From: Stereum hirsutum FP-91666 SS1
Lineage: Eukaryota > Basidiomycota > Agaricomycetes > Russulales > Stereaceae
DNA: 64,000 nucleotides
NCBI RefSeq assembly: GCF_000264905.1
Contig: NW_006763132.1
Coordinates: forward strand, 1,424,514 to 1,488,513
Reading direction: 5' to 3'
Shown here: one piece after another, positions 3,946 to 45,312 of the stretch
Layout of the letters: every line of letters starts with the position of its first letter
Position numbering within the stretch: position 1 is the first letter of the stretch
Notes under the pieces: generated by a model
Seen by the model: only the letters and a program-made list of their open reading frames with translations
What the model was told of the DNA's origin: nothing
The model's database searches: none
Made by a program: the position numbers and the translations under genes

Positions 3946-3965
3946 GTGTGTATCCTCTCTGTCTA

Positions 3966-3983
3966 TCTCTACCTATCATTTTT

Positions 3984-4026
<43 letters not shown>

Positions 4027-4262
4027 GTTTGTGTATGTATTTGTATATATGTAGGTATTTATATGTATGTGTGTATCTCTGTCTCTGTCTCTGTCTTTCT
4101 GTCTTTCTGTCTCCCTCTCTTCTTGTCTCTCTGTCTCTCTCTCTGTCTCCCTCTCAGGTCTTTTGTATTTCTTTGCCTGTATTTCTCTGCCTGTATTTCT
4201 CTCTCTGTATTTCTCTGTATTTCTCCCTCTCTTTTCCTGTCTGCAGGCTTCTTCTCTGTCTC
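3966..4262 (+). repeat. Polypyrimidine TC/TCTG microsatellite
   Basis: A run of TC dinucleotides (about 3987-4022) is followed by degenerate CTGTCTCT and CTGTATTTCT units up to about 4262, with a short GTATGTAT patch near 4030-4075. All three plus-strand frames stay open across it and would give Ser/Leu or Leu/Cys repeats, which is the expected artefact of such a tract and not a gene. Confidence 0.9.
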
Positions 4263-4563
4263 ATGTACATTTCCTGTAGTCCTGCTGTATTTAGAGTAGA
4301 TAATCTGAATGAAAATTGATTTGAGCTTCCATATCTGAGTCTGAATAACTGAGGGTGTTTTCTAAATCAATTTGAACAGGGGTTTATAAGTAGAAATTTG
4401 TGGTCTTCCTATAAGAGCTATAGGCAAATATGATGACTATCAAATTCCTGATAGAAACCCCACCTTGCTATCACAGCTAGTAGGTGCTATGATTCATTTT
4501 TCAAATATAATAGCAATGACACCTTGTAACCAGGCTGATAGCAAAGTCTGCATTTCCTGATGG

Positions 4564-24251: not shown

Positions 24252-24539
24252 TGTCACGACCACACCAGAACAACTATATCCTACAAAGAAGGGTTGCTGG
24301 CAGGCGATCTCTCACTCAGAAGCACACACCAAGGGCGAGGAAAAGGTTGTATAGGGGGGAGATTAATGATCTCAAGACTAGAGTACAAAACAGGAAGTAG
24401 GTAGGTTTATATACTAGCCAGAACCAAACACAACCAAACCCAGGCCACAGTGGCACAGAAACTCGGAAAAGTGTGGCCCAACTGTGGCACCCACCAGGAA
24501 ATAATGGAAAAGGGATGGAAATGATGGAAGGTCATGACA
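24252..24539 (-). mobile_element. Solo LTR 1 (288 bp)
   Basis: It starts TGTCACGACC and ends GGTCATGACA, with 5 bp duplications AGAAT at 24247-24251 and 24540-24544. Reverse complemented it carries a TATATAAACCTACC promoter-like box and TTGTACTCTAGTCTTGAG, as expected for an LTR on the minus strand. No internal retroelement genes are present, so it is a recombination-derived solo LTR. Confidence 0.9.
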
Positions 24540-25264: not shown

Positions 25265-25552
25265 TGTCATGACCTTTCATCATTTCCATGCCTTTTCTAT
25301 TATTTCCTGGTGGGTGCCACAGTTGGGCCACACTTTTCCGAGTTTCTGTGCCACTGTGGCCTGGGTTTGGTTGTGTTTGGTTCTGGCTAGTATATAAACC
25401 TACCTACTTCCTGTTTTGTACTCTAGTCTTGAGATCGTCAATCTCCCCCCTATACAACCTTTTTCTCGCCCTTGGTGTGTGTTTCTGAGTGAGAGATCGC
25501 CTGCCAGCAACCCCTCTTCGTAGGATATGGTTGTTCTGGTGTGGTCGTGACA
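25265..25552 (+). mobile_element. Solo LTR 2 (288 bp), inverted relative to LTR 1
   Basis: It starts TGTCATGACC and ends GGTCGTGACA, with 5 bp duplications GCATG at 25260-25264 and 25553-25557. Nearly identical to the reverse complement of LTR 1. TAGTATATAAACC and the following TTGTACTCTAGTC mark the promoter and start of transcription. Each copy has its own duplication, so the two arrived independently. Confidence 0.9.
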
Positions 25553-26086: not shown

Positions 26087-26126
26087 CGTAGACAGATTAG
26101 GAGAATTCAGGCGACCGTGTAGTGGA

Positions 26127-26249
26127 CATTATAATGAGTGACGGTAGTGCCGTCAGGACACATTATAATGAGCAACGGCAATCCCGTCAGCGTTCCACAT
26201 TATAATGAGCGTTTGGGGCCTTTTCCATGCGGCCCTTCTCATTATAATG
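26127..26249 (+). repeat. Left terminal array of CATTATAATG palindromes (4 copies)
   Basis: The perfect 10 bp palindrome lies at 26127-26136, 26161-26170, 26198-26207 and 26240-26249. Between the first two, TGACGGTAGTGCCGTCA is itself a hairpin-forming inverted repeat. The first two spacers match the right array in opposite orientation. Such arrays could be transposase binding sites or foldback ends. Confidence 0.85.
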
Positions 26250-27169
26250 AGCTCGACCTGCCCCACCAGTATTTTAAACTCCGCCAAGGGAGGATCGCAC
26301 AATGAAATATTCATTCCCTCCCCATTCTTATTTACATTTGTTTACACTCGCTCTTTCCTCTGCGCGTGCCCCTTTTGGCACCAGCTGCCACGTGTCCTGG
26401 GTGCTGCCCACCGGCCTGGCTACCCACATTTTATGCTCACCCTCCTCACTGTGGATGGTCAATCTACCTCCACTTGTGTAATGTAGTTTAGTGGTAGTTA
26501 GTATATAATTTTATTATAGTCTTTTTCACCTTATTGTGCCAGAACGGGGTTGTTTCGCTGGAATGTGGCGGGGGCCACTCGGGCCACATCATCCCAGTTC
26601 TTGGTATTATTTGTTTTCAGTTGCAGCATCGTTTTGGAGCATATGTATGAGTAGAGCAGATATTATCTGATACTCCCATTCTGTTATTACCATATGCACA
26701 TCCTCTAGGCCATGAAAATAAGGTATACAATCCATGTGGCACTGCCCCTGTTATTGTGGCCCGATGAACAAATCTTATTTACGCCTTGCAGTTCTTTCTG
26801 CACCTATTGGTATAAATGTGAAATAATACTGTCGTATACATGGTTCATTTGAGGGACCATTATCTCCAGCATATCAGGGGAATATAGGGTGAGACCGATC
26901 GTGTGTCGGAATGAGATGGGCCACAACGGTGCCACATCATTCGACTTGTACGATTTCAGTCGAAGCCCAAGAACATATATACCGCGCTGGGCGTCAGTGT
27001 CGTTCTTTGCGGCTCTATTTTTTTTTTATCTTACACCTCAACACACTACTTGCTATTATGGGTGTCCTATGTATTGTACAGAAAGAGGGTAAGAGAGTAA
27101 AATACAAAAAGTAGAGGAAAACCCTGGAGATCTACACTACACAGTAAAGTCGAAGAGAAAAAAAAGCCC
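26250..27169. other. Left end of KDZ element, non-coding
   Basis: No gene is supported between the terminal array and the stop codon of the transposase. The short frames near 26205-26486 and 26889-27114 lack motifs. The region presumably holds the 3' end of the transposase transcript and subterminal DNA. Confidence 0.5.
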
Positions 27170-30100
27170 TCAATCTCCTGCCAAGTCTTCATCATCCTCA
27201 TCGTCATTGCCGCCATCGCCATCATCCTCATCGCCGTCGTCGTCATCCTCAACTAGCACCTGAAGATCCCGAAGATTTAGAAATACGGTCGCCGGCGGTG
27301 GTGGCACAGAGTCGCCACTTCCTTCGTCCTGGTTACTCTCCTGGAAACCAGAGTCTATGAGACTCTTTGCGCGGCTGCGAATAACGCCCCACCGCTCTGT
27401 TAGGTTCCGGGCCATCCGATCTTCCAGGTCTGCATGCTCGAGAGCATACACCGACAGACCGTCAGCGAGCTCCGGTGCCACTTCCTTGCGAGCTCCAGCT
27501 TGACGCTCCCACCAGCCTTTTCGCCATCTACAGTACTCGATGGTCCGCCGCATCTCCTCGAAGACCAACTGGACCTCCTCGGTCCAACGGGATGCCCGAG
27601 CTTTTGCTTTCGCCCACTCGATTCGTAATGCTGGCGACTTGTCAATAGCAACCATAAACGGAATAAAAAAGAGACATACCATCATTGAATCCCGGATCGG
27701 AGCCATCCTCCTGGATGCTAACCGTTGTCCATATCCACGACATCTTTATCTGCTTCTCTGAGACCTCTTTCAACGTCCGGGTGGTGGCGAGGGTGGCGTT
27801 CCCAGCCGCAGCCTTTTGGCGGGCAAACTCCACGGATGCCTTGTCCGCCTCCTTCAACACCGCATCGCTCAGACCCCTAACATCCTCGTCCTTCAACTCC
27901 CGAAGCTTCGCGCCCATCCCGTTCTCCATCCACCTCTGCTCACCGAGAAGGGACATCACGGCTGTTCTTGCACGCCGGTAGCGGAGCTTGACTAGATGGA
28001 GGCGGCCCTCTACACGCGTGAGAATTTCCTGGGCCCGTGTATTCGTTCTTTGGCCAGTGATGTTGGAGATCTTGTAGCGGCTCATGAAAGTCCGGGTTCG
28101 AAGCTGATTTCGAAGACTCTCCAGTGCGTCGAAGGCTTCAGCCTCACGGAGTTGCTGTTCGGCTTCGATTAGGTAGCTGGAGCATGTCGCTGCTCGGACA
28201 TTGGGAGGAAGACTCGAAGGTAGATGGAGGGGGGTGGTTTCGGCGTCGGATCGGCGGCCTTTGAATGCCTGCTCGGTCATGTCGAGCTTCAATCGAAGGT
28301 CGGGCATGAGATGGGTTTGCAGATCCCGAAGACGCTGGATTCGGCGGTGGAGTGAGCTTCGGCGATCCTCGAGATCTGCGCGCTGCAAATGCGTCGCATG
28401 CCTTGCTTTCTTCAGGTCAGCCTGGAGCTGTGCTCTGGATTACGGTGATTAGTCAAAGCCCATTGAGAAATAAGACAACACGACTAGGACTTACTGCTGG
28501 ACCTCTATATCCATCCCAAGGACAATAAACGCGCATTCGCCCGAGTCATCTCTCCCCCGTATAGACGCAACGCCGCGTTCCTGCTCCTTCTGAGTGAGGC
28601 GAAGACGGACTTCTCCTATGGTAAGCTCTATATAAGAAGACATAAGCAAACGGTGAGAGGACAATACAAACAAAATAAATGGCCTACCTTGACGAGGGGC
28701 CACAAACGGGCAGCCCACCGACTTGTCCTCACCTTCCTCCCAGTCCTCATACATCTTGACCCACGATGCAAAGACCGCCGGGGACTCCTTCCTTAGATTA
28801 TCTTCGAATCCTCGTAAAGCCGCTCGATGGTCTAAGCAGGCAGGTATGGCGACGACCAACTTCTTGAGCAAGCTCGAGCCTGCGAGAAAAACAAGACAAT
28901 TAAGCCACTGACCGGGTCGAGGATAGCGAAAGATTAAACTTACCGAGTTTGATTGTCTTTGTCCAATTTGCATACCCACAGAAGTCGTCGAGGGTATCGC
29001 GCCGGTGCCCAGGCCTCATCTCCTTGGTACTAAACGCCGCACCGTTGAGAATCGCCCATATCCTCTCAATGGCCTCGAATTCCGTCAGAGCGAGCCAGCG
29101 AGAGAAACGCGGAGAAAAAAGCGGTTTGCATTTCTCGATGTGGGCTTCCAGATGGAACGCGGGGACGACGAAGAGGATGTTGATGATGGAGTCGGCCATT
29201 TGCAGGTGGTCGGGCATCTCCGCCATCCGTTCCCAGAAATTAATACTCCACTGGCAGCCTATGTCGTAGGAGGAGACGAGGGCAAGGAGCATGATACCGA
29301 TGATGCTGGCGAGGAAGATGTAGTCCATGTTCGCATACCTAAAATACCGGAAGCATCAGCCAACAGCCACGACGGATAAACTGCGACGTGCGTACCTCTC
29401 ACCCTTCTGTAAGTCCCCGATCCCGTTCGGTCTTATACACTCGTGCCTTCCACAGCAGACGCCGCCAACGCCGGTATTTGCGAGAGACTTTGCGCCCTTG
29501 TTGTTGGCCTTCGATATGGCGTTGAATGGGACACAATTACTGAGCTAAACGTGTATAAGACACAGCGATCAGCGACACAATATTAAAAGGGACGTACCAG
29601 ATCGTCCTCCTTATCCTTCCTTGTATCGAGGTATGCCTTGTACGCTTTCTCCTCCACGAAGTAGGCAAGGCCGTTGGTGAGGGATATGTCGGCGACAGAT
29701 GTTCTGCGAAGCCTTCCCTTGAGGCGGAAGTTCGCGTCTTGGGCTAGAAGGAGCCGATAGAGCCAACTAGAAAGCACAGATCAATACATGGGCGATCGAG
29801 TCCGAAAATCAGGAGAGCTTACGCCTCTTCCTTTGGTGCATATTCGAAGGCCTTTGGAATATTGACTTCCGGGATGGGGCAAGCCCGACAATCCACCGCT
29901 AAAGAGCCCTGCTTTGTGCCCTTGACACCGCTGGGATCTAAACCTCGACCGCCTCTCTTCAGGAGCAAGAGATTCCGCCATTCTTGTTCCATGATCATGA
30001 AGGAAGGCAGTCGGTCCTACGGGTATACAAGATAAGCGCAACGTTGCATCGCCGACGGGGAAAACACATACCGGAAGAGGCTCAATGCCATACCCATCTG

Positions 30101-31110
30101 TAAGTCGAACGAGCCCGTGGTAGAAGTCGTACGCGGTAATCTTGCCCTGGAGATTCATGGTTTGAAACAGCCGAAGAAGCTCGAATGTCGCACACGTCTG
30201 GGGGTTGAGCGGTGTGGCGGGATACCATCGATATCGCGCGAGCTGACGCCAATGATCGACCTTCTGGTAGCAGCCGCAGAAGTCGACCGCGACCTGGTGA
30301 ATTCCGTTGATGTGGAGGACTATGAAGTCCTTGTTACCGGGGTGAGGGCATGCACACGGTTCGCCAGGTTTGTGACCGAGCTGTATCCGTAAGCCCAGCT
30401 TTGCGAGACGAACCCTGCGAAAGAATTGGCCGGTCCATTCCTTCGGAAGAAAGGGAGGTTCGATAAGACGAATTAAGACGAATTAATAAGACGTACCTCG
30501 ACGATATGCAGGGGAAGCAACAAATGTGCGTTCACTATACAGCCGCCGCACAACATATCCCCACCGCTGCAATCCTTACACCGATACAAGGTACCGACCT
30601 TCTGGCAGCGACTGCAATACGTCTGCCCGCACGAAAAGCCCCGGCCTTCGGAACGCATCAACTCGTCGAGGTATTCTGAGCGGAAGCCAAGCCATGTGTG
30701 TAAGGGAGCATCCTACAGAAGAGAATAAAAAGGGTGGGGGTCGTAAGCCGACAAGTTCGCCGTAGAAATCAGAGGGTATGACGCACCGAGTTTAAGTAAC
30801 GCTTCGTGCGCTGCGTGGTCTTCAAAATCAGACCAGGGATCTCAGGAGGTTTCGGTGCCGAGAGTGAGATCTCTTCCGGATCGAAGGGAAGGTCTGGGGG
30901 CGAAGAGACAGTTGGATCGTCCTGGTTGGGGGTCATGTCGAATACCGAATCGCTGGGAGGCATGTCGGCGGGTATGAGGTCTCTCCGAGACCGTAGTCGA
31001 CGAGTTCGGCCATCGCTCGAGGTCTGGAGCAGCTCGACATCGGTCGTGGAAGTCAGAGTGCGGTATTGCTCTTCAGGGTCGAGGAGATCAGCCCGTCTTT
31101 TGGGTGGCAT
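27170..31110 (-). CDS. KDZ-superfamily transposase with CxC2-type cysteine cluster
   Basis: Eleven exons read by eye: 31110-30787, 30712-30497, 30440-30072, 30017-29823, 29766-29598, 29544-29396, 29338-28944, 28879-28688, 28627-28495, 28434-27680, 27630-27170, about 1,100 residues. After a basic N-terminus (MPPKRR) comes the cysteine cluster CSRCQKVGTLYRCKDC..LCGGC..H (residues about 150-180), then VLHINGIHQVAVDFCGC and WYPATPLNPQTCATF. The RNase H-like core has NGIGDLQKGERYANMDYIF, SYDIGCQW (near residue 498), VPAFHLEAHIEKC and STKEMRPGHRRDTLDD. The C-terminus has the family's coiled LRNQLRTR..KYR.AR and EWAKAKARASRW blocks and an acidic tail. A cut-and-paste transposase is inferred. Exon 4 (DRLPSF..MEQEWRNLL) changes frame by one base near 30000, so the protein may be broken unless spliced differently. 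Confidence 0.93.
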
Positions 31111-31345
31111 AGGCAAAGAAGGACACTGTGCCACAACGAATAGGGCGAGGGAACAGCGTGGGATATCAATAAACACGAGCACGTGCGTTTCCTCGTCTCT
31201 AGCTTTTCACGCAAAAGGTGGACATCGACGAGCAGTCTGGCAGTCTACGGACATCAAGAACTCGATGAATATGATGAAATTGGGGGATGTAAACATAGCA
31301 AGAAACAAAACAAGAGAAAACATATCAAGAACACGGTAAAAGCTA
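31111..31345. promoter_or_regulatory. Short spacer between TET/JBP stop and transposase start
   Basis: Both genes lie on the minus strand, with the dioxygenase upstream. The 235 bp between its stop (31346) and the transposase ATG (31110) must hold the transposase promoter. It contains CACGTG near 31180 and no ACGCGT. No TATA box is obvious. Confidence 0.4.
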
Positions 31346-33435
31346 CTACGAAATGCTATCAAAGTCCGACCCCCGTTCTTCGTCGTCCGAATCCTCGCTA
31401 CCCCCAAAACATGCTCGATAATCGTCCGCGAGATCCTCCAAGACAGAATATTTACCAAGTGCCTCCATCCACCGCTGCCCATGCCGTCCATATGCCTCCC
31501 TATGCTGATCGTCGGTCAGCACCCACTCCGGAACGAAGCCGTGGTGCACCCAACGGAAGATACCCCCAGCGCAATACATCGTGAACGAGTAGCGATGCTC
31601 CGTGGGGCCGACCGGTGTGTTTCCATGGCGTATGGTACTCGAGGGAAGCAGAATGACGGAGCCGGGAGGGAATTGGATGATGAGACCGAATTCAAGAAGT
31701 ATAAGGTGGCCGCCGACCTTCGGATCGTAGTCTCCGAGGGCCCAAACCGCGCACCAGCCGTGAGGGACGTTGGCGGAGTCACAATGACCTCGACAACAAC
31801 ATTGGGGACCTAGATTAAATGTACAAGCGGGCCACACAGCGTTTTTGAAAGGGCGTCGACAGCTGGGATCATGCGAATAGAGGGCCTCCGTCTCCTCTGC
31901 GTATTGTTTGTATAGCTTTGGGGCATAGGTCATAAAGGCGGCTGGATTGAAGCGGTATGAGCATACAAAGAGGGGACTGGGCGAAGGATAGAACACTTAC
32001 AATTTGCGAAGCCAGCCATTCGCCTGATAGGCTTGCTTCTCAGGAGGCGGCCCACCAGAGGGACCTGACAGACCTTCTCCGGCTTGAGGTTTCCTGGCTC
32101 CTGCAATAGCCGAGGCGTCAGCAAAGTCGGAAAGAAAGGATCGGGACGGATAAGAACCTGCTGACCCCCGCCATAAGATACACCGGCCGTCAGTGAAACA
32201 AAGTCACCACGTCGAGCATCGTGCTGTTTCTCGGTCCATGCATCCATGGCGTCACCATCGAGGCGCGTCTGCTCGAGGAGAGCAGTTGCGGGCTCGAGCA
32301 CGTCACGGTGCCAGTTCGGGTCATCAGGATGACCTCCGAGGACCCCAAGCAACCTCCTGTGTGGGTCGATGATCGCGTGGGGCGTACTACAAATATACGA
32401 ATGAGTGAACAAGAGAGAGACAGCAAGGATCCAAGGTACTTACACGCCATCCCATTCCTCGAGTCTGCATCCCATAGCCAATGCACCCTCCACCGTGTAA
32501 TCGTCCGTCCCATGCTCCCTATCGACCGGTCGGTTCTTCCCAACATACGCACCCTCGGCTGCCGATGCCGTCTCCATCTCCACGTTGGTCTTGATGGTGA
32601 TCGGCGCCCCCCACTTCTCCATGGCATGCTTGGGAAGCCGATACTCAGAGGGCCAAGGCCCCGACTCGTCATCTTCCTCTGCTGCCTCTGTCTTCTGCCT
32701 CCTCACCTCCGCCCTCTTCGCCTTCTTCTTCTGCCGCTGGGTTTCGCTCTTCCTCCTCTTCGGCAGCCTACCCTCCGCCTTCTTCTTCTCCTTCTTCGCT
32801 TTGTTCCTCTCTCTCTCCTTCATCAGCTTCGTTGTCGACCACCCCTGCCTCCTCCTCTTACTGGTACCGGCTTGAGGGACCGACTCGACACCGGAAGTAG
32901 ATCCGGCATCACTATCAGATTCCCATCCAGAGAGGTCGGAGAGGTCGGAGAGACATAGATCGGGGCAGGGACACGACAAACGGTACGTGGATTTATGGGA
33001 TCGCCATCCAGGCTGAGTGGGTGTGGGTGTGGCGTCCACGGCTGGAGAATCGAGGGAGACGGCGTTGGTCGCGGGGGCGTCAACGGAGCCGGAGACGGAG
33101 TTAGTCGAAGGGGCGTCGACAGAGCTGGAGCCGACGCGAGCAGTATTGATGGCGTTGGCCTCCACGGAAGCGGCAGCGAGAGAGTGAGAGTGAATGGAAG
33201 TGGTGTCGACGGATGGAGGGTTCATGGCGGTGGGGCCGAGTGGGCTAGCTTTGACAAGGGTAGGGCGGCTCATCGTGGTAGAGTGTGAACGGGCCAGGCT
33301 CCTTTCCTTCTCGTCTTCGTCCCAGTGCGCTTGGGCTGCGTCCCACGCACTGGCCATGAGGTCTTCGTAATCAACATTCACCTGCAACGGGACGTACGCG
33401 CTGAACTCGCGGCCGTTACGGGTCTTGCCAGACAT
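31346..33435 (-). CDS. TET/JBP family 2-oxoglutarate/Fe(II) DNA dioxygenase
   Basis: Four exons (33435-32444, 32386-32158, 32100-32001, 31941-31346) give about 639 residues. Residues 1-330 are low complexity, with a Lys/Arg-rich tract (KERERNKAKKEKKKAEGR) likely to bind DNA or target the nucleus. The catalytic part follows: WDGVTPHAIIDPHRRLLGVL, then SYGGGQQ.EPGNL, then RRMAGFANSAFMTYAPKLY. The double-stranded beta-helix has the iron-binding H-x-D (GHCDSANVPHGWC, near residue 494), PPGSVILLPSSTIRHGN with the distal His, and HRYSFTMYCAGGIFRW with the 2-oxoglutarate Arg. Family members oxidise 5-methylcytosine or thymine in DNA; the substrate here is inferred. TET/JBP genes carried by KDZ transposons are established in Agaricomycetes, and adjacency to the transposase fits that. 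The frame is intact. Confidence 0.93.
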
Positions 33436-34000
33436 CGTTCTCGTGGCTGATCCAAGCGTGTTGGAGACAAAGGTGATCAGTACATGCATCTTCGAGGGAA
33501 ATAAAAGATCAAAAGAGACAGGAATGGAACTTGACGCGTCAAAAAACGCGTCAAAAACACGTAAGACGCGTAATTTAACCGTTGAAGAGATGCCCCGGTC
33601 AACCCAACGCTACCGTGCAACACAAAGCAACTTACTACGCGCGATGCTAAAGCTCCTGTCGGGCCTACTGCTTCTGCGGTTCAGAAAGGAATGTGGACGA
33701 CGCGCGTTTGGCGTGGGGCATGTCTGTGAGTACGTAGAGACGCACCACCGGTCGCAATACGGAGACGATAGAACGAAAATGGATCGCAAATAAATTGGCT
33801 CACTTTTGGGAGAATAAACTTGAGGGCGTCCGTATTGCTGTGGGTGTTGCACGAGAGATGGGGGTCAAGGGGAAATTTGCGGGACAAGTTTATATAACCC
33901 TAAATCTGGACCCACGGCTTGGCTAGGTCACCGCGATCGCGCCAACGACAGGGTCAGCCCGAGGGTAAGTTGCACAACAGCATACGCTGTCCATGGATTG
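33436..34000. other. Upstream region of TET/JBP gene
   Basis: This is the promoter side of the minus-strand dioxygenase gene. It holds the ACGCGT triplet listed separately. Short frames at 33425-33887 have no motif. A GTTTATATAA box near 33890 reads on the plus strand but no gene follows closely. Confidence 0.4.
33534..33571. promoter_or_regulatory. Three ACGCGT boxes (MCB-like) upstream of TET/JBP
   Basis: ACGCGT occurs at 33534-33539, 33546-33551 and 33566-33571, about 100-136 bp upstream of the dioxygenase ATG. ACGCGT is the MluI cell-cycle box recognised by the fungal MBF (Mbp1/Swi6) complex at G1/S. Three copies in 38 bp is far above chance. Binding here is inferred from sequence only. 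Confidence 0.65.
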
Positions 34001-34311
34001 ATCTGCTATGCAAAAAAACACAAAGATCAGTCCACGGCACGGCGAGTTCTTACTGCACGTTCAGCATCGTGGTGTATTGCTCTGTACCAAGTTTGAATAC
34101 GGTTGGTGTGTGTGGCGTGTGGTGGCGCTAATCGTGCATGTAAGTACTTTACACTTTCAGAGACACCTGCAGTACGACCGTACGATTCAAATATGAAGTC
34201 CAAGCACATACCATAAAGTTCAGTCATTAAAGCTTCAAGGTTCATCTCGACATATCGCCATTGAGACTCTTGGCAACATGTACTTACTCGAAGCCGCGTC
34301 GGTGCCACAGC
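34001..34311 (-). other. Possible exons, unresolved
   Basis: On the minus strand, SQWRYVEMNLEALMTELYG is bounded by an AG acceptor and GTATGTGC, followed after a possible intron by VSESVKYLHARLAPPH. These may be 3' exons of the gene at 34312-34740 or of a separate short gene. Phase could not be reconciled. Confidence 0.3.
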
Positions 34312-34745
34312 TCAATATTTGTGTCTCCGATCCAGGTGTGTTTGGAGTACTACAGTTGATTCCGAGCCCGTGAAGCTAGGATAGATCGTTATATACATAG
34401 TACCGTCACCCAAAAAGTCCTCAAAAAAATATAGAGGTCGATTGTAGAGCCCATCCTTTTGTAATCGAGCAAAACTCGAGTTCTGGATTCTGCAAACCGT
34501 GCAACTCGCGTCAGTTCGAAGGACGCCTGCGTTCTTCCAAGATGCTTTTCGACCTTCCCAACGAGGATACATATTTGGGCTACTCAAAAACTGTGCATAT
34601 GTCATGGGGAGTCAGAGTGTAAGTATCCAGTCAATAGACCTACATAATTAGACTCTGTCTTACATTCTGAACAAGCAGTTTCCGTCGAAAGAGAGTTGTG
34701 TTTGCACCGTTACTGCCACTCAGTATCACGAAGCTCAGTTAATTC
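34312..34745 (-). CDS. Unknown gene in KDZ element, part of a spliced gene
   Basis: A minus-strand piece reading ILSGSNGANTTLFRRKLLVQ ends at a GTAAGAC donor near 34676. It joins in phase, at a CACAG acceptor near 34594, to FLSSPNMYPRWEGRKASWKN, CTVCRIQNSSFARLQ and NRPLYFFEDFLGDG. The frame then runs to a TGA at 34312. The two halves are both protein-like and keep phase, which supports a real gene, but I see no 5' end and do not recognise the family. Antisense frames here (for example NEDTYLGYSKTVHMSW on the plus strand, 34543-34618) are also open, so the strand is not certain. Confidence 0.4.
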
Positions 34746-35473
34746 AGTTCCCGTACAATACTCTTGCAGTCTGCTCACCTCTTCGTAAAATCATCTGACA
34801 CTTGCAATGCAGATGTCACAACCTAGAGCCCTCTCTATATTTTGTCTTCTCGCACAATCAAGAGACAAAGTCGGAAGCTCTGTGGCAGAATAGGGGCTTC
34901 GGGCTTGTTCCTGGTCCATTCATGCCGGACAAGCGACCTATACCGCAAGATTCAGTCTTCGGAATGCACATCGTAGCTCTATTATTTCAAGGGACTTTGT
35001 TTGATTACCCTGTATGTTTCTCGTGGGCGGTCTTTTCATTGTCAATATCATATGCAGTCACACATCGAAAACCGGAGAGATATGTCATTGCAGCAAAGCG
35101 GGAGTTCAAAGTGTGTAGATACAAAAGCAGATCAAAGCACAACTAAACTGGGGATACGAGAAGCGTGACACACAGCATGACTGCACTGGGAAAATGGAAG
35201 AGAATGAGAATGTAAAAACAAGGCGCGAGATCCCAACTCTACCTCTGAAAACCGAAGTGGTTAGTGAGATGTTTCGGTGTGCTATGGGGGATACAGGATA
35301 GAAATTACTTACCCTTCCTATGCGAGCAATCATAGACTACGACGTACAACGGGTGATTTAGGAAGTGGGTACGGGGGCGAAGGAATTGTGATCAAACCCG
35401 AACTGGTTGTAGAACTCGTCCACGTTGACGCTTCACGGAGGGTTCAGTGCGTAGACCAAGAGCAAAAAGTAGT
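34746..35473. other. Region with competing open frames, no firm gene
   Basis: A plus-strand frame at 34802-35011 (ending GMHIVALLFQGTLFDYP) can join through a GTATGT..TGCAG intron to SHIENRRDMSLQQSGSSKC, ending TGA near 35169. This is a plausible short gene without a recognised domain. Nothing else is supported. Confidence 0.3.
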
Positions 35474-36355
35474 TTATGATACGCACCTACGGCCTTGGAA
35501 GATTAATTCCTCTTCCTCATACGCCGCAACCAGGTGAGCAGTGCTGTATGCGAGGAGATCGAGGACCTGGGCATAGCAGGCGATGGAGTGGATCCAACTG
35601 GCCAGTGACACCTGTCGGAGTGGGTCATCATCTCGCGGGCCCCACCAGTCTTTGCGGAGCTCCGCAACGACATTGAGACGCGTCTGCAAGTGGTTTTTGA
35701 GGCCTTTTACGAGGACGGCACAGCTTTCCTCGTCTCCGAAAGCATCTAGGGCGTCCTCGACTATGTCCTTGGCAGCCCGCATACTGGACTGCAGGTTGGT
35801 ATTGGAGGTGGTGATGGCGAGGACCTGCCAACATGGATCTGGGTGCGATTCGCCTGCTGGAAGCGCCAACCGGTTACTGTACCCTCTACCGGCATTGTTG
35901 CAAGTTAAAAAAAAGGATTATGATCGTGAAAAGATGGTAAGGGCGTACTGTTCTTTGAGTTGGGCGGTTCGCTTCTCGATCTTCTCGAGATACAAGGCCC
36001 ACTCCTCCTCCGAAATTTGGTGTTCGCATTTCCGTTCATAGATCTCGTCGAAACGAAAGTACTTGCTGATCTTGTTGTGGGGTTTCGCTTCGGGATGGTG
36101 AGCTACATCGGAGGTAAGAGCTCACCTGACGCTGGAAGATGGAAGAAAAAACCTACCACGAAGAAGAAAGCTCGCATACTCCTTGTTGAGATAGGTAGGC
36201 ACCCTACCCTCAGGCCAGTCAATCGTGAAGAAATCGACTTTGTCGAGCCCAAGGCAGGCTTCGTTCATCTCCTGCTCGGGTCCAGGGGTGTCGGTTTCCT
36301 GCTCCGGACCAAGGCCATCTCCTACCGTCTCCTGTACAACCTCAGGAGTAGCCAT
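35474..36355 (-). CDS. Unknown cargo protein of the KDZ element
   Basis: Three exons keep phase: 36355-36157 (MATPEVVQETVGDGLG.. FTIDWPEGRVPTYLNKEY), 36102-35949 (KISKYFRFDEIYERKCEHQ.. YLEKIEKRTAQLKE) and 35876-35474 (ITTSNTNLQSSMRAAKDIVE.. LASWIHSIACYAQVL), about 250 residues. The middle is charged and probably helical; the C-terminal part has an amphipathic helix pattern. No known domain or catalytic motif is seen. A longer frame extends upstream to 36586, but the chosen ATG gives the first acidic, protein-like segment. It may end earlier or later by splicing at CGTAG/GTGCGT near 35487. It lies in tandem with the other minus-strand cargo genes. Confidence 0.6.
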
Positions 36356-37097
36356 AGGGAAACGAAGTGAAGGGACCGTAGAGATGAATGGTGACTGGTG
36401 AGGGAGTACTATGCCGAGAGGGAAACGAAGCCACAGAGAGCGAGAGCGGGGCAGAGAGCGAGAGGGAAGCAAAGCGAGAAGGGAAATACAACCTAGAGGA
36501 CGTCGACGATGGCGGCGTGAGGCAAGCATGAGGCGAACGTGAGGTAGACAGGGCCATTCGGCTACGCATGAAGTCGTAGTGCCCATTGTAGTGCACTACG
36601 TGTTGCGCTGCGGGAAACCGACAACCGGAGACACATCAGACGTGGGCGCTTGTTTGTAGCGACGCTACGAAGACATTCGGACTCCGCTCGGCGAGAGGGT
36701 GGCTCTTTTTCCAGTGCCACTCGTCGAGGGACTTCAAGGGATCGCACCAATGCAAGGTGGCCAGACTCACAGCGGTAATCACAACGATAGGCAGCATATC
36801 ACATTTCTCAAAACGACAGTATGTACATCCAAAACAAACAAGACAGAGCACAAAGCACGGCAGAACAAGAAGATAACAAAGACGAAAAGGATAGCAAGAC
36901 AGCAGCGAATGGCAACGACGTATGTACAAAGGATTGGGATGGAGAATGGGTGCGACAAGAGAAAGGTCTAAAAGAAGAATAAATAAAACTACACATATGG
37001 TCCAACCTCCACACCGTCGCTGTTGTCCTCCTCTACTACGACATCTCACCCAGCCCTACCCATCCACCCCCTCCCGACTTATCCGCTACTTCCGCAC
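36356..37097. other. Intergenic DNA inside the KDZ element
   Basis: No gene is supported. Frames near 36636-37049 and 36699-36971 overlap antisense and lack motifs. The stretch separates the stop of the RNase H1-N-like gene (37098) from the start of the unknown gene at 36355, both on the minus strand. Confidence 0.45.
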
Positions 37098-38423
37098 TCA
37101 ACGAGAGCGCACCCGAACCACGCCCTGCGCTATCGCGAGAGCGAAAGCGGCCTGCGCATCCTGCGGGTTCTTGTAGGAGACGACGACGGCACGCTTGATG
37201 AACAACACTTGGTCCGCAGCCTCACACCTAGATTAGAGGAGTTAGTATGATTGTCGGAATTGTACTGACGATGAAAGGAGAAACTTACCAATCACGGAAC
37301 ACGCCAACGCGTCTACCCTGTGTAACGACATACGTTGTCAACGAGGATTCGGGAGGGGGAGGGAGGCCTGCAGGAGTCGGGATCGGCGATGGGAGCGGTC
37401 GCTGACCACGATATCCCGGCTCCGCGTGGACGAGACCCTTGCGAAGCATATCGGCGAAATGTATATGGGCCTCCCTCTCCGTGGGATGGCCCTTGTATAA
37501 CTGACCCGGGGTACCGAAAACCGCAAGACGGGTGTCCGACCTATATGGACCAATAATAATCAGCATCGAGGGGTGTAGGAATGCAAAGACGGAACTCACC
37601 AGCTTGTGAACACACCGGGCTGCCATGCTTTGATCGCACTAAACGCCTTATACTTTGGGCGGCGCGTGGCCGAGAGAGGAAACTCGGGGCGAAGTTGACG
37701 GGGGTTCGTAAGGACGACGACGCTCCGTACGCTCGCTCCTGGGACACCCTGGGTAAGATCCGCAGCCTCTGCCCTGAGAGCCTGTGAGTATCGTGAGATT
37801 CGAGGTAACATGCGAGACATACCAATGATTGACAATCTTCGGCGAGGCCAACTTTGGCGTGTCGACGGCGTAAACCTTGTTCGCACGGTTGAGGTTAGGG
37901 GCCAAAGGAGCGGGAGGGGCGGGGACGAGTGAGGCATCCTGACGCGCGTCAGACGAGGGCAGGGGGGACGATGGGGACGGGGACGGGGACGGGGACGGGG
38001 ACGAGGACGAGGTAGACGAAGACGAGGTAGACAAGGCCAGTGGGGGAGATGAAGGCGCGATAGGAGCCGGTTGAGTAAGAGGTTCAGAATCAATGGGGAC
38101 GACGGCTAGCGGATTTGCTCAACGGTTAGCAACGGAATGGAATACAGAAAACGGGAATACGACGCACCCAGAGTGCCAGGCTGTGCCTCGACCGTCATAA
38201 CGCTCATCGCCGCCGCCAGCCATGCCTCGTCGTCCGAGCCATCATAGTTTGTGCTCTCGTACGCCGTTGCCCACGACTCCGAAGTGGAGTCATCGTCCGC
38301 TTCGTCCGAGGAGGCGCTATCGTCCTCGTTGTCGTGAGAAGTGCGGAGAGGGAGAGAGGGGAGGGAACGGGAACGACGAGAGGGGAGAGGGGACATCGCG
38401 AAGACGTGGGGAATGATGGCCAA
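37098..38423 (-). CDS. Protein with two RNase H1 N-terminal-like (hybrid-binding) modules
   Basis: Five exons: 38423-38168, 38105-37823, 37773-37600, 37540-37289, 37227-37098, all joining in phase, about 365 residues. The N-terminal half is Ser/Asp- and Ser/Pro-rich (a (PS)n run from a GGGGAC repeat near 37970-38010). The first module is KYKAFSAIKAWQPGVFTSW then SDTRLAVFGTPGQLYKGHPT. The second is TYVVTQGRRVGVFRDW then CEAADQVLFIKRAVVVSYKN and DAQAAFALAIAQG. Both match the Y.V..G...GVF..W....... V.......K.F.....A layout of the caulimovirus viroplasmin/RNase H1 N-terminal domain, which binds RNA-DNA hybrids or dsRNA. There is no RNase H catalytic domain. An alternative ATG lies at 38396. A role in handling hybrids at the element is inference. 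Confidence 0.75.
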
Positions 38424-38600
38424 GATGATTGCCGACGACTATTATAAGCCGTACTTCAACTCTCGGCAAAGAGCGAGACTTCATCGGGCAGCATCGGAAC
38501 TGATCACACGTGGCCGCCGGTACGCGTTGACGCGTTGACGCGTTGTGGGCGGTTGTTTTTTTTTTTTTCTGAACCGGGGATTTTCTTCCGACACCTCACC
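38424..38600. promoter_or_regulatory. Divergent promoter with three ACGCGT boxes
   Basis: This 177 bp separates the start of the RNase H1-N-like gene (minus) from the start of the large cargo gene (plus). ACGCGT lies at 38522-38527, 38530-38535 and 38538-38543, as three tandem TGACGCGT-type units, followed by a run of T near 38560-38570. The MCB-type boxes repeat the pattern upstream of the TET/JBP gene and suggest shared MBF control. Confidence 0.65.
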
Positions 38601-41600
38601 ATGGCGGACGCGTCACAGCCTACAGCCCTCCAAACCGATGCTGGACTCTCTTCACCTACCGCTCTTTTTGCGGGTGCCTCTGCTTGTCTTTCTGGACAGT
38701 TATCATCCGGTCACGCCGCCATCATTCCATCAACTTCCGGAAGAGGTGAAGTTCTTTTCCCATCCAGGACATCTTCTCCAGGGACCGCCGCGGCCTCGCA
38801 TTCACCTAGTCCGGACACATCTGCTCCCACGACCACGATCCCGACCTCGACCTCAACCTCTACGGCTCCCACGTTTTCTGCTGATGCCACGACTTCCTCA
38901 TCGTCCACGATCCCAACCTCGACCTCGACCTCGACCTCGACCGCAACCTCTACCGCTCCCACGACATCCTCTTTCGATGCCACGACCTCCTCATCGTCCA
39001 CGAACCCGACTCCCTCAGCAAGTCTAGTAACTCCTACAACGTCCCCGGTAGACCTTCCGACGCGCAAGGGCCCCAAAGGCGCACGGAATCTCGGGCCGAA
39101 GGAGAAGGGGAAACCGGGCCGGAAATCTCAGTGGCCTCCCAAAAAACTCGCCTTCCTCGAAGCGCACCTCGCAGACTGTCTCGCCAGCGACAACCGCAAG
39201 AGTTTCTATAACCGGTTCCTCTACATCTGGTTCAAAGTGTTCGGGTTGGAACTTCCGTTGCGGGCAGATCCGGATGGTGAGGTCGACGAGAAGGAGTCCC
39301 TTTCGGTGCCAGATGTAGTCGAGGAGTTGACAAAGGAACAGCGGGAGAAGAGGGCCACGGAAAGTAAATCCTGCCATCAGGTGCGTCACATCTACGTCTG
39401 TTATTGTTCTTTACTGACACATACATCATTTTGGTTCGTTTTTTTCCCTTAGATTCTCTCCAATTGGTTCCGTGCCCGCATGCAGCGGTGCTCGAAGGTG
39501 GCTGATCCCGCTGCTGCCTTGGCCGAGTTCCTCGACGGTCCGTCTTCCGACGCGCAAGGTTCAGGTCGTAAGAAGCCCATCCTACAGTACTACAGCACGC
39601 GGTACTGGAACGAGCGTATCCTCGTACGATATCGAATCATACGGTGTCGACACGAGCAGGATTGGGAGGACCTCGTTGCATCCGGTCAGTCGGAAGGTCA
39701 CAAGCCCCCGTTGATCATTTCTGCGATCTCGGAGGCGGTCGGAGAGGCCTGGGCTGCAGAATCCGAGGAATTCAAGACGGAGCTGGAGGCAGAGAGAGAC
39801 ACCGAGTACGCGAAGGCGAAGGAGGCTCCGACCGAGAGTGCGCCCGCAGAGCGTACACCGGCGGAATATCAACAGTACGTCGTGTATTTTCATCTCTTTC
39901 TTTCTTTCTTTCACTCATAACTCCTCAATATCCGGACTTGTTGGGAGTAGCGCCATCGATCGCGCCGCTGTCCTCCTCGAGCCAGTGGTTAACGCCATCT
40001 ACACGAAGATGGGCCTGGTCAGCACTCTCATTATTGCTGGCCCTATGCCAGACTGTGGGGGGCAGATCAAGCTCCGCGCGTGCGTATTTGTTTTGTTTCT
40101 ATTTCTTACTTCAGTACTAACTGATGTTCTTTTTCATAGCCTTACCTATGGCCGTACGATGGATTTTCACCAGCAAACGTTCGATGAGGCCATGAGGGAT
40201 CCATACTTCGACGTCTGTCGCGCAATGCATGCATTCGCAAAGAGATGTTTCCGTAAGTCTTTCCTTTGCTGTTAATGCTTGCTTTATCGCATTCTGACAG
40301 TTTCATATTCTGATCAATAGCGCAGTCTGTCTGCGACTCGAGAGCACTGCGACCCGACGTTGGCGCAAGCACTACCGAGTCGGGCTCTCCAGCAGGCCCA
40401 CCGACAGACCTGCCACCGCTGCTCGACCCCTCGGATTCCATCCCCAACCTCGATATACCTCTCGACGCCGCTTTCCAGGCTCCCCACGCCCGCAATGCTC
40501 CTCACGCCCCCTACACTCTTGATGCCCGCAATGCTCTCACTCCCAGTATTCCCTGGGCTCCCGATGTCCCCGACGATCTCGATGCCCCTAATGCCCCTAA
40601 TGCCCCCGATACTCCCAACACCTGCAATTCCCGCAACGTCTCCGATGTCGAGCGTGTACCAGAACCCCGTCCCGCCTCCCCTGATGCGTCTTCAGAACCC
40701 GCGGAGTCCCAAGGTACAGCCAAGGCCCCACATCAAGGGCCTGCTTGGCGACGAACTCGCAACAAAGCAGCCAGGCCTAATAACCGCACGCCGGCACTCG
40801 ATGCAGAGCCTCATAATGATACGCAAACCTCCACTAACGATATTTGGGTGCCCGATACCCCTCCGGACGAGACTGGCCCTCCTAATGCATGTAGGCCACC
40901 GTCCTCCCTCCTCCCGTCCACCGTCGCGGATTTCCACCAGCAGGAACAGTCTGGCACTGTTTCGAAGCCCGCTGAGAAGCACAACGCAACCTTCGCCCTG
41001 GATCCTGCCCTTATGGGCCCCGATTATCTTCCAGGAGCTGAGGGTTCCTTTGCTTCCGCTTCCGCCTCCGCCTCCACCGCCTCCTTCGCAGTCACCGCCA
41101 GCTCTACCTCCGCCGTCGCCAGTGCCTCTACTCCCTCCCACAGCACTACTCCCGCCAACGCCACTTCTGCCAACGCCACTTCCGCCAACGCCACCCCCGC
41201 CAATGCCGCTACTCCCCTCAGCACCAGCGCTACTCCCGTCACAGCCACCGGTGCTACCGCAATCACAGCCGCCGGCACTACCCCTGCAACCGCAGCTGTC
41301 AGCGCTGCCCCTTCCGCCGCCTCCAGCACCTCCAATACCACTCCTGGTACCAACCCCGCCATCGTCGCCACCCCCGCCATCGTCGCCACCCCCGCCATCG
41401 TCGCCACCCCCGCCATCGTCGCCACCCCCGCCATCGTCGCCACCCCCACCATCGTCGCCACCGCTGTGCCAACTATCCCTGCCTCAAAATATCCCGAACC
41501 GTCTCTTCCACAGTCTTCAGCAAGACCCCTTCCTCGTCGATTGCCTATGGCGCCCGGACCTCTCTCAGCGGCTTCGCGAACCACGCTGCCAACCAATACG

Positions 41601-42551
41601 CCATCGCCCAATGCCGCGCAACACCACCACTCTCCCAATTCGACAGCGCCTCTCCATCCCGCTCCGGAGTCGCTACAGTCATCGCCACACGTTCCCGATG
41701 CCTCCGAGAAAGCGCCGTTGGAGCGGCTGAAGACTGCCGTCAATACGAAGGGGCTCTGTCCGAAGATGAACGAGTATTATAGGCTTTTTGCAGATGGTCA
41801 CAAGAAGGGTGGTCCGTGGGTTCGGTGTATCGAGGCCTTCACTGCTATCGAGATGTTTGACGGTCAGCCGGTGAGTTTTTTTATTGGGTCTTGTTATCAT
41901 TTGCGCTCGTACTTACTGATCGCTCTTATAGGTTGAAAAGAATGGGAGAAGGTTCTCATGTGATGACAGGCCTGCACAGGTTAGTGCCTGGATCAAAGCC
42001 GGCAGAGATGTCGAGGACGTTGGCATCGACAGGATCGGACTGTGGAAGGAGAAGTGGTGGAAGTGGTGGCAGAACCTCGTGCCCGGTAGGATGGTGGTCA
42101 AAGGCGATCCACAAGGCTCAGCGAACACGGATGCGTTCTCATTGAAAAGTTTTGATGTAAGTACGAGCTGTGGGATTGTGCTGGTGATGATGACGCTGTC
42201 CTGGTGGGGGGCGAGTGCATGGACTGCCGGGGGTACTGAGGTACGGGAATGGGAGGAGGCTGTGGCAGAGGTGGAGTTTGTCCTGTCGGACCTGTTGAGG
42301 TCAAAGGAAGCAGCTGCTGAGAAGGAGAACGACGAAGAGGAGGAAGAGGAAGGATCGGGCTCCGATGAAGATCAAGTGGCACAACCGGGTTCGCCAGTAC
42401 TTGGGAAGCGTAAAACCAGGTAAGCCTTAAATGATCATCAAATACTCTGTAGCCCCAATCTCATGGATATAATAGGAGTGCAGCTGTCAATCCAAGCCCT
42501 GTCAAATCCCACGGAGCCCGTCGACGAGAGAACAAAAGGCAACGTCACTAG
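38601..42551 (+). CDS. Large Ser/Thr/Ala-rich KDZ cargo protein, conserved Agaricomycete type
   Basis: Start at CACCATGG (38601). Seven exons join in phase: 38601-39380, 39453-39874, 39951-40079, 40140-40252, 40321-41870, 41932-42419, 42476-42551, about 1,185 residues. Residues 1-170 are Ser/Thr-rich. Next comes a basic GPKEKGKPGRKSQWPPKK with a conserved-looking LAFLEAHLADCLAS..FYNRFL block, then YYSTRYWNERI and LVSTLIIAGPMPDCGGQIK. A long low-complexity region follows, with an 18 bp repeat coding IVATPA near 41360-41468. The C-terminus has NEYYRLFADGHKKGGPWVRC, IGLWKEKWWKWWQNLVPGR, CGIVLVMMTLSWWG and a basic KRKTR tail. From memory this resembles a family of uncharacterised Agaricomycete proteins with a WW-rich C-terminal motif; function unknown. 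An antisense-like proline-rich frame inside exon 5 is a shadow. Confidence 0.75.
41360..41468 (+). repeat. 18 bp coding minisatellite (IVATPA)n
   Basis: About six near-perfect tandem copies of ATCGTCGCCACCCCCGCC lie inside exon 5 of the large cargo gene. The 18 bp length keeps the reading frame, so copy number can vary without frameshift. Confidence 0.9.
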
Positions 42552-43049
42552 GTGGCCCCTACGCCACATTCCTTCCATGTGCTTTCATCATCCCAGCCCC
42601 GACCTTCCATACACCCTACGACCTTCATTCATTCAGTTAGGCCCTGTCGCTTTGCCCCTGCTCCTCCCCCTGCTATCTTCCTCTCCATTGCTTTCCAATT
42701 TGCATTTTAAATGTTTTGTATATTATTACTATTTTTATGTAGATTCTTTCGATCTTTCTGTAGATTACTGGCTCCATTAATATAGAACTGAACCTCACTA
42801 TTTAGGAAGGGACATGCAAGTAGAGGCTAATCCCCAGGATTGGTGCTACGAGGATAGTAGGCCACAGGGTGCTGGGTGATGACCAAGCTGCATCCTGATT
42901 AGGATGTGAGGATGTAAGCGAGTGCAGCCCAAGCCGTCCCAATATGGGCATACCAATATTGAGTGCAGTGGAAGTATTGGAACAGCGCTTGAACAGCCAT
43001 ATATGGAAGCATATTTGAGCCCCGCCAGCAAAAGGATGGGGAGAGTGCT
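42552..43049. other. Right end of KDZ element, non-coding
   Basis: No gene is supported. The stretch contains small inverted words such as CCAATATGGGCATACCAATATTG near 42938 and leads into the right terminal array. Confidence 0.5.
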
Positions 43050-43147
43050 CATTATAATGAGAGCCCCGCCCCGCCATACAGTGGAGACGGGATTGCTGTC
43101 TCTCATTATAATGTGGTTTGACGGCACTACCGTCACTCATTATAATG
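43050..43147 (-). repeat. Right terminal array of CATTATAATG palindromes (3 copies)
   Basis: The palindrome lies at 43050-43059, 43104-43113 and 43138-43147. Reading inward from the outer edge, the first spacer (TGACGGTAGTGCCGTCA, in reverse) and the 34 bp step match the left array. The inner spacer is longer here (54 bp). One copy fewer than on the left. Confidence 0.85.
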
Positions 43148-43250
43148 ACCCCACATGCTCTGGTGGAGAATTCTGGGGAACCCAATATCGGTTCCTCAGC
43201 TATATTTATACTAAATACAGTAAACTATTATACAAGGCATCAGTAAAGTA

Positions 43251-44099: not shown

Positions 44100-45312
44100 T
44101 AGGGAATGACAGGGGTATGGGTAACCCGGCCGGGTAACGTACCCAGACCCGGACGGGTCGGGTCCGGGTCATCAATTGGGAACCCGAAGCTGACCCGGAC
44201 CCGTGGTCGGGTCACCCGCGGGTCGGAGGATCGATCCGGCAATTGCCGGAATGCTGTGCGCTTCCTGAAGAAGCTGCCAGCTCATCCGCTTCATCCTCTC
44301 TCTTGCCCTCCACCACCGAGTGTGTGATGGGATAGGTGGTGCTTGACGTTTCGGATTTCTCGGTGGTTCTGGGGGTTTTCAGACCCTCCGAACACGATCC
44401 CGTTGTCCGTTTGTCCATACGGGTCCGCGTTCATTCGGTGCGCCCCATTCTTCTCCTCACCCTCCCTCAGACACTAATTACCTTACCACATTCTTTCCAA
44501 CCGGCCTGTTTCGCGTTTCTCAACGGCTCTGGGGGTTTTCAACCCGTAAAAAAACGCTCCCACTGTCCACTTGTCGATACGTATCCGCGTTCATCCGGTG
44601 CGTCCAATCTTCCTCCTCCATCCCTCTCAAATAGTAATTGGCCTACTACCTTTTTTCCAGTGGTGTCGTATCGTGTTTCTCAACGGTTCTGGGGGTTTTC
44701 GAACCCTCCGAGAACGCTCCCGCTATCCGTTTGTTGATATGTGTCCGCGTTTGTCCGGTGTGTCCCCTCCACTCCCTCATCCTCACCCAAACACTAATCG
44801 GGCTGCACGCATTTTTTACACCGTAGGATTTCTCAAATCTCAGTGTTTTCCGGGGTTTTCAAACCCTCCGAACACGCTCCCATTGTCCATTTGTCAACGC
44901 GTACCTTCGTTCCTTGGGTACGTGGACTTCTTCTCCTCCCCCTTCCCCAAACATTGTTCAACTCCCCACATTTGTTCTAGCCACGTTGTTTCCGTTTTCT
45001 CAGTGATTTCGGGGGTTTTTCAACTATCTGAACACACTCGCGTTGTCCGTTTGTCAACACATAGCCTTGTTCTCCCGGTATGTCCCCTTCCCCTCCTCCC
45101 TCTCATCTGAACACTAATTGCACTATCACCATTTTTTTCGACAGTTCTATAATTTATTCTGCCAATCCATAGTGTAGTAGTGTACATACCCCTGGCATAC
45201 CCAGACCCGGCCCCCAACCCGCAGACCCGTGCAGACCCGAGAGACCCGTACCCGGCGGGTCCGGGTCCGGGTAGGTGTATTCTAACCCGCGGGTGACCCG
45301 TGTCATTCCCGA
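44100..45312. mobile_element. Complete non-autonomous hAT (1,213 bp)
   Basis: The left end reads TAGGGAATGACAGGGGT; the right end, reverse complemented, reads TCGGGAATGACACGGGT. Perfect 8 bp duplications ATAGTAAA flank it. Subterminal regions consist of ACCCGG/CCGGGT words in both orientations (44120-44230 and 45200-45300). The core is a tandem array. There is no open frame for a transposase. The truncated copy at 11671-12361 is the same family. Confidence 0.93.
44346..45120 (+). repeat. Tandem array, ~160 bp unit, about 5 diverged copies
   Basis: Each unit has TTTCTCA, GGTTCTGGGGGTTTTC, AACCCTCCGAACACG, TGTCCGTTTGTC, TCCGCGTTCAT, then a pyrimidine tract and CACTAATT. Units begin near 44348, 44512, 44670, 44828 and 44991. 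The truncated copy at 11.7-12.4 kb retains two. Confidence 0.85.

Follow-up and report, generated by a model that had tools for sequence, protein, structure and literature searches.

A 64,000-nucleotide stretch of the Stereum hirsutum FP-91666 SS1 genome (the window; C2:1424514-1488513 of the 46-Mb, 38-contig genome analyzed) harbors a KDZ-class transposon of 17,058 bp at positions 26108-43165. The element is very probably a complete, apparently intact Kyakuja-like KDZ transposon that moves five genes as a unit, namely, a KDZ transposase (A), a TET/JBP dioxygenase (B), and three further genes (C, D, and E); only E is encoded on the plus strand, the other four being on the minus strand. The unit was delimited to the base with the aid of a paralogous empty site, and its genes were found at three loci, one of which is decayed with an excess of CpG transitions; the intact and decayed copies are a naturally occurring pair with which to ask whether a TET enzyme protects the transposon that encodes it. 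The product of gene D, predicted to be of the RNA-DNA hybrid-binding type, is named here as a conserved partner of the transposon TET.

Element ends and empty site

The termini of the element read 5'-CA..TG-3', with CA at 26108 and TG at 43165; the outer sequences are CAGGCGACCG on the left and TGCTCTGGTG on the right, where the end reads ...CTCTGGTG. Both termini abut a copy of the target site duplication (TSD; Table 1). Flank identity extends to 9 bp (GGAGAATTC), such that a TSD of 8 or 9 bp would also be compatible with the sequence alone, but the TSD was taken as 7 bp because the CA..TG ends disfavor the longer forms. The first-pass annotation had recognized this terminal interval but placed its ends at 26109 and 43164, each off by one base; these were replaced after comparison with related ends on C14 and C4 and with the empty site. 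The latter comparison, proposed in the same annotation, was informative: when the two flanks were joined with a single target copy, the junction and its surroundings matched C8:395610-395701 (E = 9.5e-27). A direct alignment of this empty site covers 93 positions, includes one gap, and shows GAGAATTC once. The search returned nine rows, comprising the two flanks themselves, the junction-spanning match on C8, and six matches to a single flank. Given these six one-sided matches, part of the flanking DNA is repetitive, and the C8 site is paralogous, not allelic.

Inverted terminal arrays, as had been described from the letters alone, were confirmed. Subterminal arms of 65 nt (26124-26188 and 43086-43150) are inverted and 89% complementary, and the outermost bases of the two ends share an inverted match of only a few letters. 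Allowing one mismatch at most, CATTATAATGAG was counted 13 times in the window against 0.18 expected, a number reached in 0 of 100 shuffles; as the motif is palindromic, most sites were scored on both strands within the 13. Palindrome offsets are distances from CA at a left end and, at a right end, from TG read on the complementary strand. At the left end of the copy on C14, CATTATAATG occurs at 19, 53, 90, and 132, with one mismatch in the third unit. On C4, a short element has palindromes at 18, 52, and 98 at one end and at 19, 53, and 89 at the other. The first two left offsets of the window element are also present in this C4 element and in a strongly diverged copy on C23 that was located through its genes, where one CATTATAATG is followed by two CATTGTAATG with spacings of 34 and 38. 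The left CA is common to the window, C14, and C4 ends; in C23, where its position was set by the offset, it lies 19 before the first palindrome (CAGCCGTGC...). Further left-type ends with an offset of 19 were identified from coordinates at C19:1272641 and C8:786, and right-type ends lie at C4:36938, in the short element, and, with an offset of 18, at C10:1653366 (the latter from coordinates). A loose array pattern with up to two mismatches was found at 36 places, compared with 10 for a reversed control, and rows with two mismatches were retained only if they coincided with a DNA match to the end. Thus, spacer sequences differ among the ends, but the offset and the 34 bp from the first unit to the second are constant. 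This is the pattern expected of transposase binding sites, and the arrays are designated here as putative sites of this kind.

The C4 element (L055, C4:36938-38317) is 1.38 kb, has both end types with their arrays, and matches the window element only near the ends. Its target duplication is imperfect, with CCATGT shared. It looks as an ordinary nonautonomous relative would.

Genes of the element

Gene models were obtained with a simple splice-aware model trained on the long frames of the window, followed by splice-site corrections to C, D, and E. No internal stop is present in the models, and GT-AG borders were seen for the D and E introns and for the C intron that was redefined (Table 1).

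Table 1. Features of the KDZ element, in window coordinates
Feature	Position	Strand	Basis or remark
Left TSD, GAGAATT	26101..26107	.	Same as 43166-43172; single copy in paralogous empty site C8:395550-395760
Left terminus, 5'-CAGGCGACC..., with four CATTATAATG palindromes	26108..26251	+	Offsets 19, 53, 90, 132
Gene A, KDZ transposase with CxC2 cluster, 11 exons, 1,098 aa	27170..31110	-	Pfam on spliced model
Gene B, TET/JBP dioxygenase, 3 exons, 657 aa	31346..33435	-	Residues and predicted fold
Gene B, 2-oxoglutarate (2OG) Arg	31592-31594	-	
Gene B, distal His	31625-31627	-	
Gene B, Fe Asp	31778-31780	-	
Gene B, Fe His	31784-31786	-	
Gene C, protein without recognized domain, 4 exons, 274 aa	35358..36355	-	NCBI STEHIDRAFT_152678
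Gene D, three tandem RNase H1 N-terminal modules, 5 exons, 355 aa	37098..38396	-	Pfam PF01693
Gene E, conserved N-terminal half and Pro/Ala/Thr-rich middle, 7 exons, 1,185 aa	38601..42551	+	
Right terminus, ...GCTCTGGTG-3', with three CATTATAATG palindromes	43048..43165	-	Offsets 18, 52, 106
Right TSD, GAGAATT	43166..43172	.	Same as 26101-26107; single in empty site

The product of gene A matches the Pfam families KDZ (E = 1.5e-60) and CxC2 (E = 7.6e-41), in agreement with the CxC2-type KDZ transposase first read from the sequence. It contains D479, H516, H520, C524, and E542, which we take to be catalytic residues of KDZ transposases. In an alignment of 14 loci (15 were submitted, out of 16 KDZ loci), D479, H520, C524, and E542 are present in all 14 and H516 in 13, being Tyr in C14; a second Glu (545) is present in 12, with Lys in the other two.

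Gene B was likewise correctly described as a TET/JBP dioxygenase with intact H-x-D, distal His, and Arg, as the window codons read H, D, H, and R. Its Pfam match to Tet_JBP is weak and under the cut-off (E = 0.0026 for the exon and 0.013 for the whole protein); at 0.001 this Pfam family matches only 2 of 30 rows of our TET alignment A1. The core of the protein is predicted to form a double-stranded beta-helix, for which the best fold match is CcTet, with 16 to 17% identity. Nothing credible was found for gene B in the Protein Data Bank (PDB) by single sequence or profile, and a profile match to a yeast protein (E = 0.00071) was set aside as it starts in the charged N-terminal part. An alignment of 39 rows (the window and 38 of 54 relatives) has the Fe His and Asp in every row, always as HxD and never as the PE-type HxE, with the distal His in 37 (two gaps) and the Arg in 37 (one gap and one Ser). 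Counted gap-free from the Fe His, the position of CcTet residue 331, which is Gly or Ser in the AG-type TETs of Kojima (PMC12730594), is Asn in all 39 rows, and the position at +11 (if gap-free, that of CcTet Asp337, which is Asp in the AG type) is Cys in all 39. Asn at +5 from the Fe His is the residue of animal TETs. From these residues, gene B appears to belong to an Asn/Cys clade that is new as far as the literature examined goes.

Of the "one or two" additional genes suggested earlier, one was substantiated, gene C, which matches NCBI STEHIDRAFT_152678 at 99%, and the second was not. Gene C has no Pfam or NCBIfam match, and its structure model is of low confidence (pLDDT, 38.9). Seven relatives were found: five unnamed sequences and two named Stereum proteins, of which one is the window protein itself.

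For gene D, the two RNase H1 N-terminal-like modules previously reported became three: PF01693 matches in three stretches (E = 1.2e-19, 70.7 bits, cut-off of 21; E = 1.7e-11 on the first model). Taken alone, the first module scores 18.2 bits, below the cut-off, and the others score 33.0 and 32.9. Comparison of the third module with the human and yeast RNase H1 N termini gave nonsignificant E values of 0.37 and 0.41, respectively. No RNase H catalytic domain was listed by Pfam, and the whole protein (first model) had no match in the PDB. A genome search with PF01693 yielded C2:3359239 only, among the matches listed, and its control matched in 2 of 14 genomes; as this search overlooked the exon-split modules of the window, it does not show that the domain is rare.

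Gene E has the 1,185 residues originally given. No Pfam family exceeded the cut-off (HMG box, E = 0.23), NCBIfam gave no match, and the PDB gave nothing credible. No homologue was present among 7,992 scored protein-database candidates, although low-complexity words may have crowded matches out.

Copies elsewhere in the genome

The genome match lists for A to E, to be read as lower bounds, show three loci at which all five genes share one order and orientation: the window, C14 (with E partial), and C23. Recurrence of the set at two other loci suggests that it travels as one unit. In the C14 copy (L052-L054), the left end is followed in order by genes A through D and an initial portion of E, with 71 to 89% DNA identity to the window in 400-bp bins. 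The C14 stretch contains a run of N at 3111-5019, in the left part of the copy, and a second from 19959 on; the right end is unseen, because homology stops approximately 570 bp before this second run. In C23 (L043/L044), A, B, C, and D are ordered, and E, located at C23:407776-408983, is opposite to them in strand, just as it is in the window. Over the conserved parts, identity between the C23 and window copies is approximately 71% for the TET and 34% for C. Thus, of the earlier expectation that other copies would have the same ends and gene order, the gene order held at both loci and similarly built left ends were found, but with the right ends of C14 and C23 unseen, "same ends" could be checked on one side only. 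A relic at C2:1355001-1375000 retains pieces of A and B as well as gene C. Approximately 0.9 kb (L046:3717-4606) lies between two neighboring pieces of its TET gene; a CATTATAATGAAGTGCGG motif at 3753 in L046 recurs on C1, C3, and C8 and perhaps marks another repeat family.

Matches to gene C (at least 12 rows) fall in the window, C14, C23, and the C2 relic, those to gene D (at least 13 rows) in the window, C14, and C23, and those to gene E (at least 12 rows) in the window, C14, and C23, plus one weak row on C9. This last match (C9:791704-791943, E = 9.6e-5), near a TET-KDZ pair, was not counted, as its strand misfits the other three loci. By our own clustering, 36 KDZ rows condensed to at least 16 loci and 25 TET rows to at least 18. 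Among the matches listed, a KDZ match lies within 10 kb of the TET at 10 of the 18 loci and within 4 kb at 7. The first-pass annotation held that genes found elsewhere without the arrays would speak against a composite element; TET relatives do occur without a KDZ match, while the listed matches to C, D, and E lie in these elements, the relic, and the one weak row. On these counts, the TET-KDZ pair is the wider phenomenon and C, D, and E mark the sublineage of the window, although fast genes, such as C, may go undetected in distant elements. The TET-like loci with no KDZ match listed inside 10 kb, which may be host genes or further carriers, are C3:303455, C3:1221769, C7:2076726, C11:1721352, C23:462065, C24:264243, C24:316466, and C28:31315.

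Selection, decay, and CpG content

Ratios of nonsynonymous to synonymous substitution rates (dN/dS) were calculated between the window and C14 by the Nei-Gojobori method, using the first models for D (340 amino acids), E (1,161), and C (271). The values were 0.116 for A (1,090 codons), 0.189 for B (605), 0.262 for C (263), 0.348 for D (226), and 0.286 for E (388, only to window position 40252), with 9, 53, 9, 115, and 93 codons, respectively, excluded for unclean alignment. By this measure, all five genes are under purifying selection between the two copies. Synonymous divergence (dS) is 0.40 for C and 0.21 for D, compared with 0.76 to 0.86 elsewhere, and genes C and D (compared over window positions 35470-38590) are 84 to 89% identical to C14, with bins on either side at 71 to 83%. 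This block looks as if segments had been exchanged between element lineages, giving a mosaic.

The C14 copy is decayed. Twelve in-frame stops were identified in aligned codons, of which six are CGA-to-TGA changes; frame-breaking indels occur in every gene as aligned, splice dinucleotides are altered in A and B, and the TET is without its 2OG Arg. Over 10,393 aligned bases, 283 CpG sites of the window are TpG or CpA in C14 and 111 show the reverse, whereas non-CpG C-to-T differences on the plus strand are symmetric (202 versus 206). Thus, the decay of C14 is CpG directed, as deamination of 5-methylcytosine (5mC) would give.

The observed/expected CpG ratio of the window element is 0.978 in coding sequence, 1.143 in 24 introns (first models), and 1.024 in noncoding DNA at 33436-35357. 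The edges are CpG depleted, at 0.711 (26108-27169) and 0.434 (42553-43165), and the interior is not. The left flank has a ratio of 0.602 and the right flank 1.007. Per 4 kb, the left flank (1-26100) is CpG poor (0.43 to 0.76), rising towards the element, and the right flank (43173-64000) ranges from 0.90 to 1.11, placing the element at a change of compartment. In C14, the two parts of the copy have ratios of 0.832 and 0.819, and the flank has 0.585. The pattern in the window fits a methylated neighborhood with a spared element interior, and a young insertion fits too. Repeats near the element include tandem arrays at 20875-21920 (period 171/342, with 6.1 and 3.0 copies) and 44368-44798 (period 160, 2.7 copies) and, near the left end, a 288-nt inverted repeat (24252-24539 and 25265-25552) whose arms are 97% complementary and 725 nt apart.

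Proposed mechanism and alternatives

In the mechanism we propose, the KDZ/CxC2 transposase would read the subterminal palindrome arrays, excise the element, and insert it with a 7-bp stagger, as expected from its family. The TET of the element would oxidize 5mC on its own or nearby DNA, keeping the genes expressible and slowing CpG decay; we judge the chances of such an antisilencing role to be evenly balanced. An escape role for TET has also been proposed by Kojima (PMC12730594). Gene D, judged by its modules, would bind RNA-DNA hybrids, either in R-loops on the transcribed, oxidized element or during transposition, and C and E may be accessory factors, perhaps acting on element DNA or chromatin. 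These parts might instead form a self-derepression cassette, in which TET oxidizes the element's own 5mC, D captures R-loops favored by 5-hydroxymethylcytosine (5hmC), the R-loops exclude methyltransferase or mark the element for the transposase, and C and E are its own chromatin or DNA-binding partners. 5hmC is described as promoting R-loops in mammalian cells (PMC8896830), but that D serves 5hmC-favored R-loops is conjecture, and the cassette as a whole is improbable.

Several observations weigh against a five-gene unit with a protective TET: the 1.38-kb C4 element bears the ends but lacks the genes, 8 of the 18 listed TET loci are unaccompanied by KDZ matches up to 10 kb away, and the dead C14 copy is CpG richer than its flank. 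The gene-less C4 ends would suit a chance composite in which C, D, and E are host genes trapped between unrelated transposon ends, as would the smaller size of some described KDZ elements, approximately 11 kb for Cryptococcus KDZ1 and 9 to 10 kb for KDZ2 and KDZ3 in the accessible text of PMC12810828. Such a composite is nevertheless scarcely credible, given the constant order and orientation of five genes at three loci, the finding of C, D, and E at no other host loci among the matches listed, and a 7-bp TSD and empty site that enclose the entire interval. An ordinary KDZ transposon, with extra genes dispensable for transposition and a TET that acts genome-wide to neutral or host-useful effect, would accord with the description of oxidized cytosine in Coprinopsis and Laccaria as also lying on retrotransposons and not confined to such elements (PMC12730594). 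We consider it unlikely in view of the purifying selection on all five genes (dN/dS, 0.12 to 0.35) and the persistence of C, D, and E together despite deep divergence, with C only 34% identical in C23.

Two further alternatives concern the TET itself. Rather than serving demethylation, it may mark element DNA with 5hmC or a base modified beyond that stage, for example for recognition by the transposase or to hide the element from a host nuclease or a process resembling repeat-induced point mutation; TET-type enzymes capable of hypermodifying rather than erasing are discussed in PMC12730594. The distance of gene B from CcTet (16% identity), with Asn and Cys in place of Gly331 and Asp337, would allow for this. 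However, Pfam at an E value of 0.5 listed neither a glycosyltransferase nor any other domain for follow-on modification in the five proteins, and Asn at +5, as in animal TETs, suggests plain oxidation of 5mC; marking is therefore a rather doubtful proposition. That the high CpG content of the window reflects a young copy or selection, with no protection by TET, falls only slightly short of an even chance. The right flank is about as CpG rich as the element, the dead C14 copy (0.82 to 0.83) remains above its flank, and active lineages of any transposon avoid decay through selection. Against this, introns and noncoding DNA are as CpG rich as exons, so that selection on coding sequence alone is insufficient, although youth is still compatible with these values. 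The reading we prefer remains that of a complete KDZ transposon moving its five genes as a unit.

Comparison with known systems

Iyer et al. (PNAS, 2014) reportedly described expansions in which TET/JBP genes lie next to KDZ transposases that carry CxC clusters. The KDZ-TET association is, as the first-pass annotation stated, established, TET+ Kyakuja elements of Agaricomycetes having been published (Kojima 2025, PMC12730594). Those of Laccaria have a 7-bp TSD and 5'-CA..TG-3' termini without terminal inverted repeats (TIRs). The window element shares with TET+ Kyakuja the KDZ and TET/JBP genes, the TSD length, the CA..TG ends, and a known occurrence in Russulales, to which Stereum belongs, but whereas Kyakuja-1_LB and -2_LB are described without TIRs, it has subterminal inverted palindrome arrays at fixed spacing. 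It also has three extra conserved genes, while the accessible main text of PMC12730594 names none in Kyakuja; neither "RNase" nor "cargo" nor "Stereum" appears in that main text.

CcTet of Coprinopsis cinerea (PDB 7vpn, 7w5p, and 8jkk), the best fold match, has the same HxD...H...R set as gene B but differs in having Gly331 and Asp337. Intact KDZ transposons of Pleurotus ostreatus are all preceded by a CxC2 cluster, as in gene A, but the accessible part of that account (PMC7641404) describes no extra genes. Cryptococcus KDZ1 to KDZ3, which have been shown to move, are large elements with cysteine-cluster transposases, as in the window, but are described with TIRs of 139 to 241 bp, TSDs of 8 bp (KDZ1) or 4 to 8 bp (KDZ2 and KDZ3), and CxC1 with no TET mentioned in the accessible text (PMC12810828), unlike the CxC2 and TET of the window element. 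PF01693, the hybrid-binding domain of RNase H1, occurs three times in tandem in gene D, with no RNase H catalytic domain listed. Genes C, D, and E have no description in a KDZ element in the literature examined, although the 2014 work of Iyer et al. and the Kojima supplement may contain parts of what is presented here as new. As far as that literature goes, a TET+ KDZ transposon is a known kind, and the five-gene set, the triple RNase H1 N-terminal partner, the arrays, and the pair of intact and decayed copies are new.

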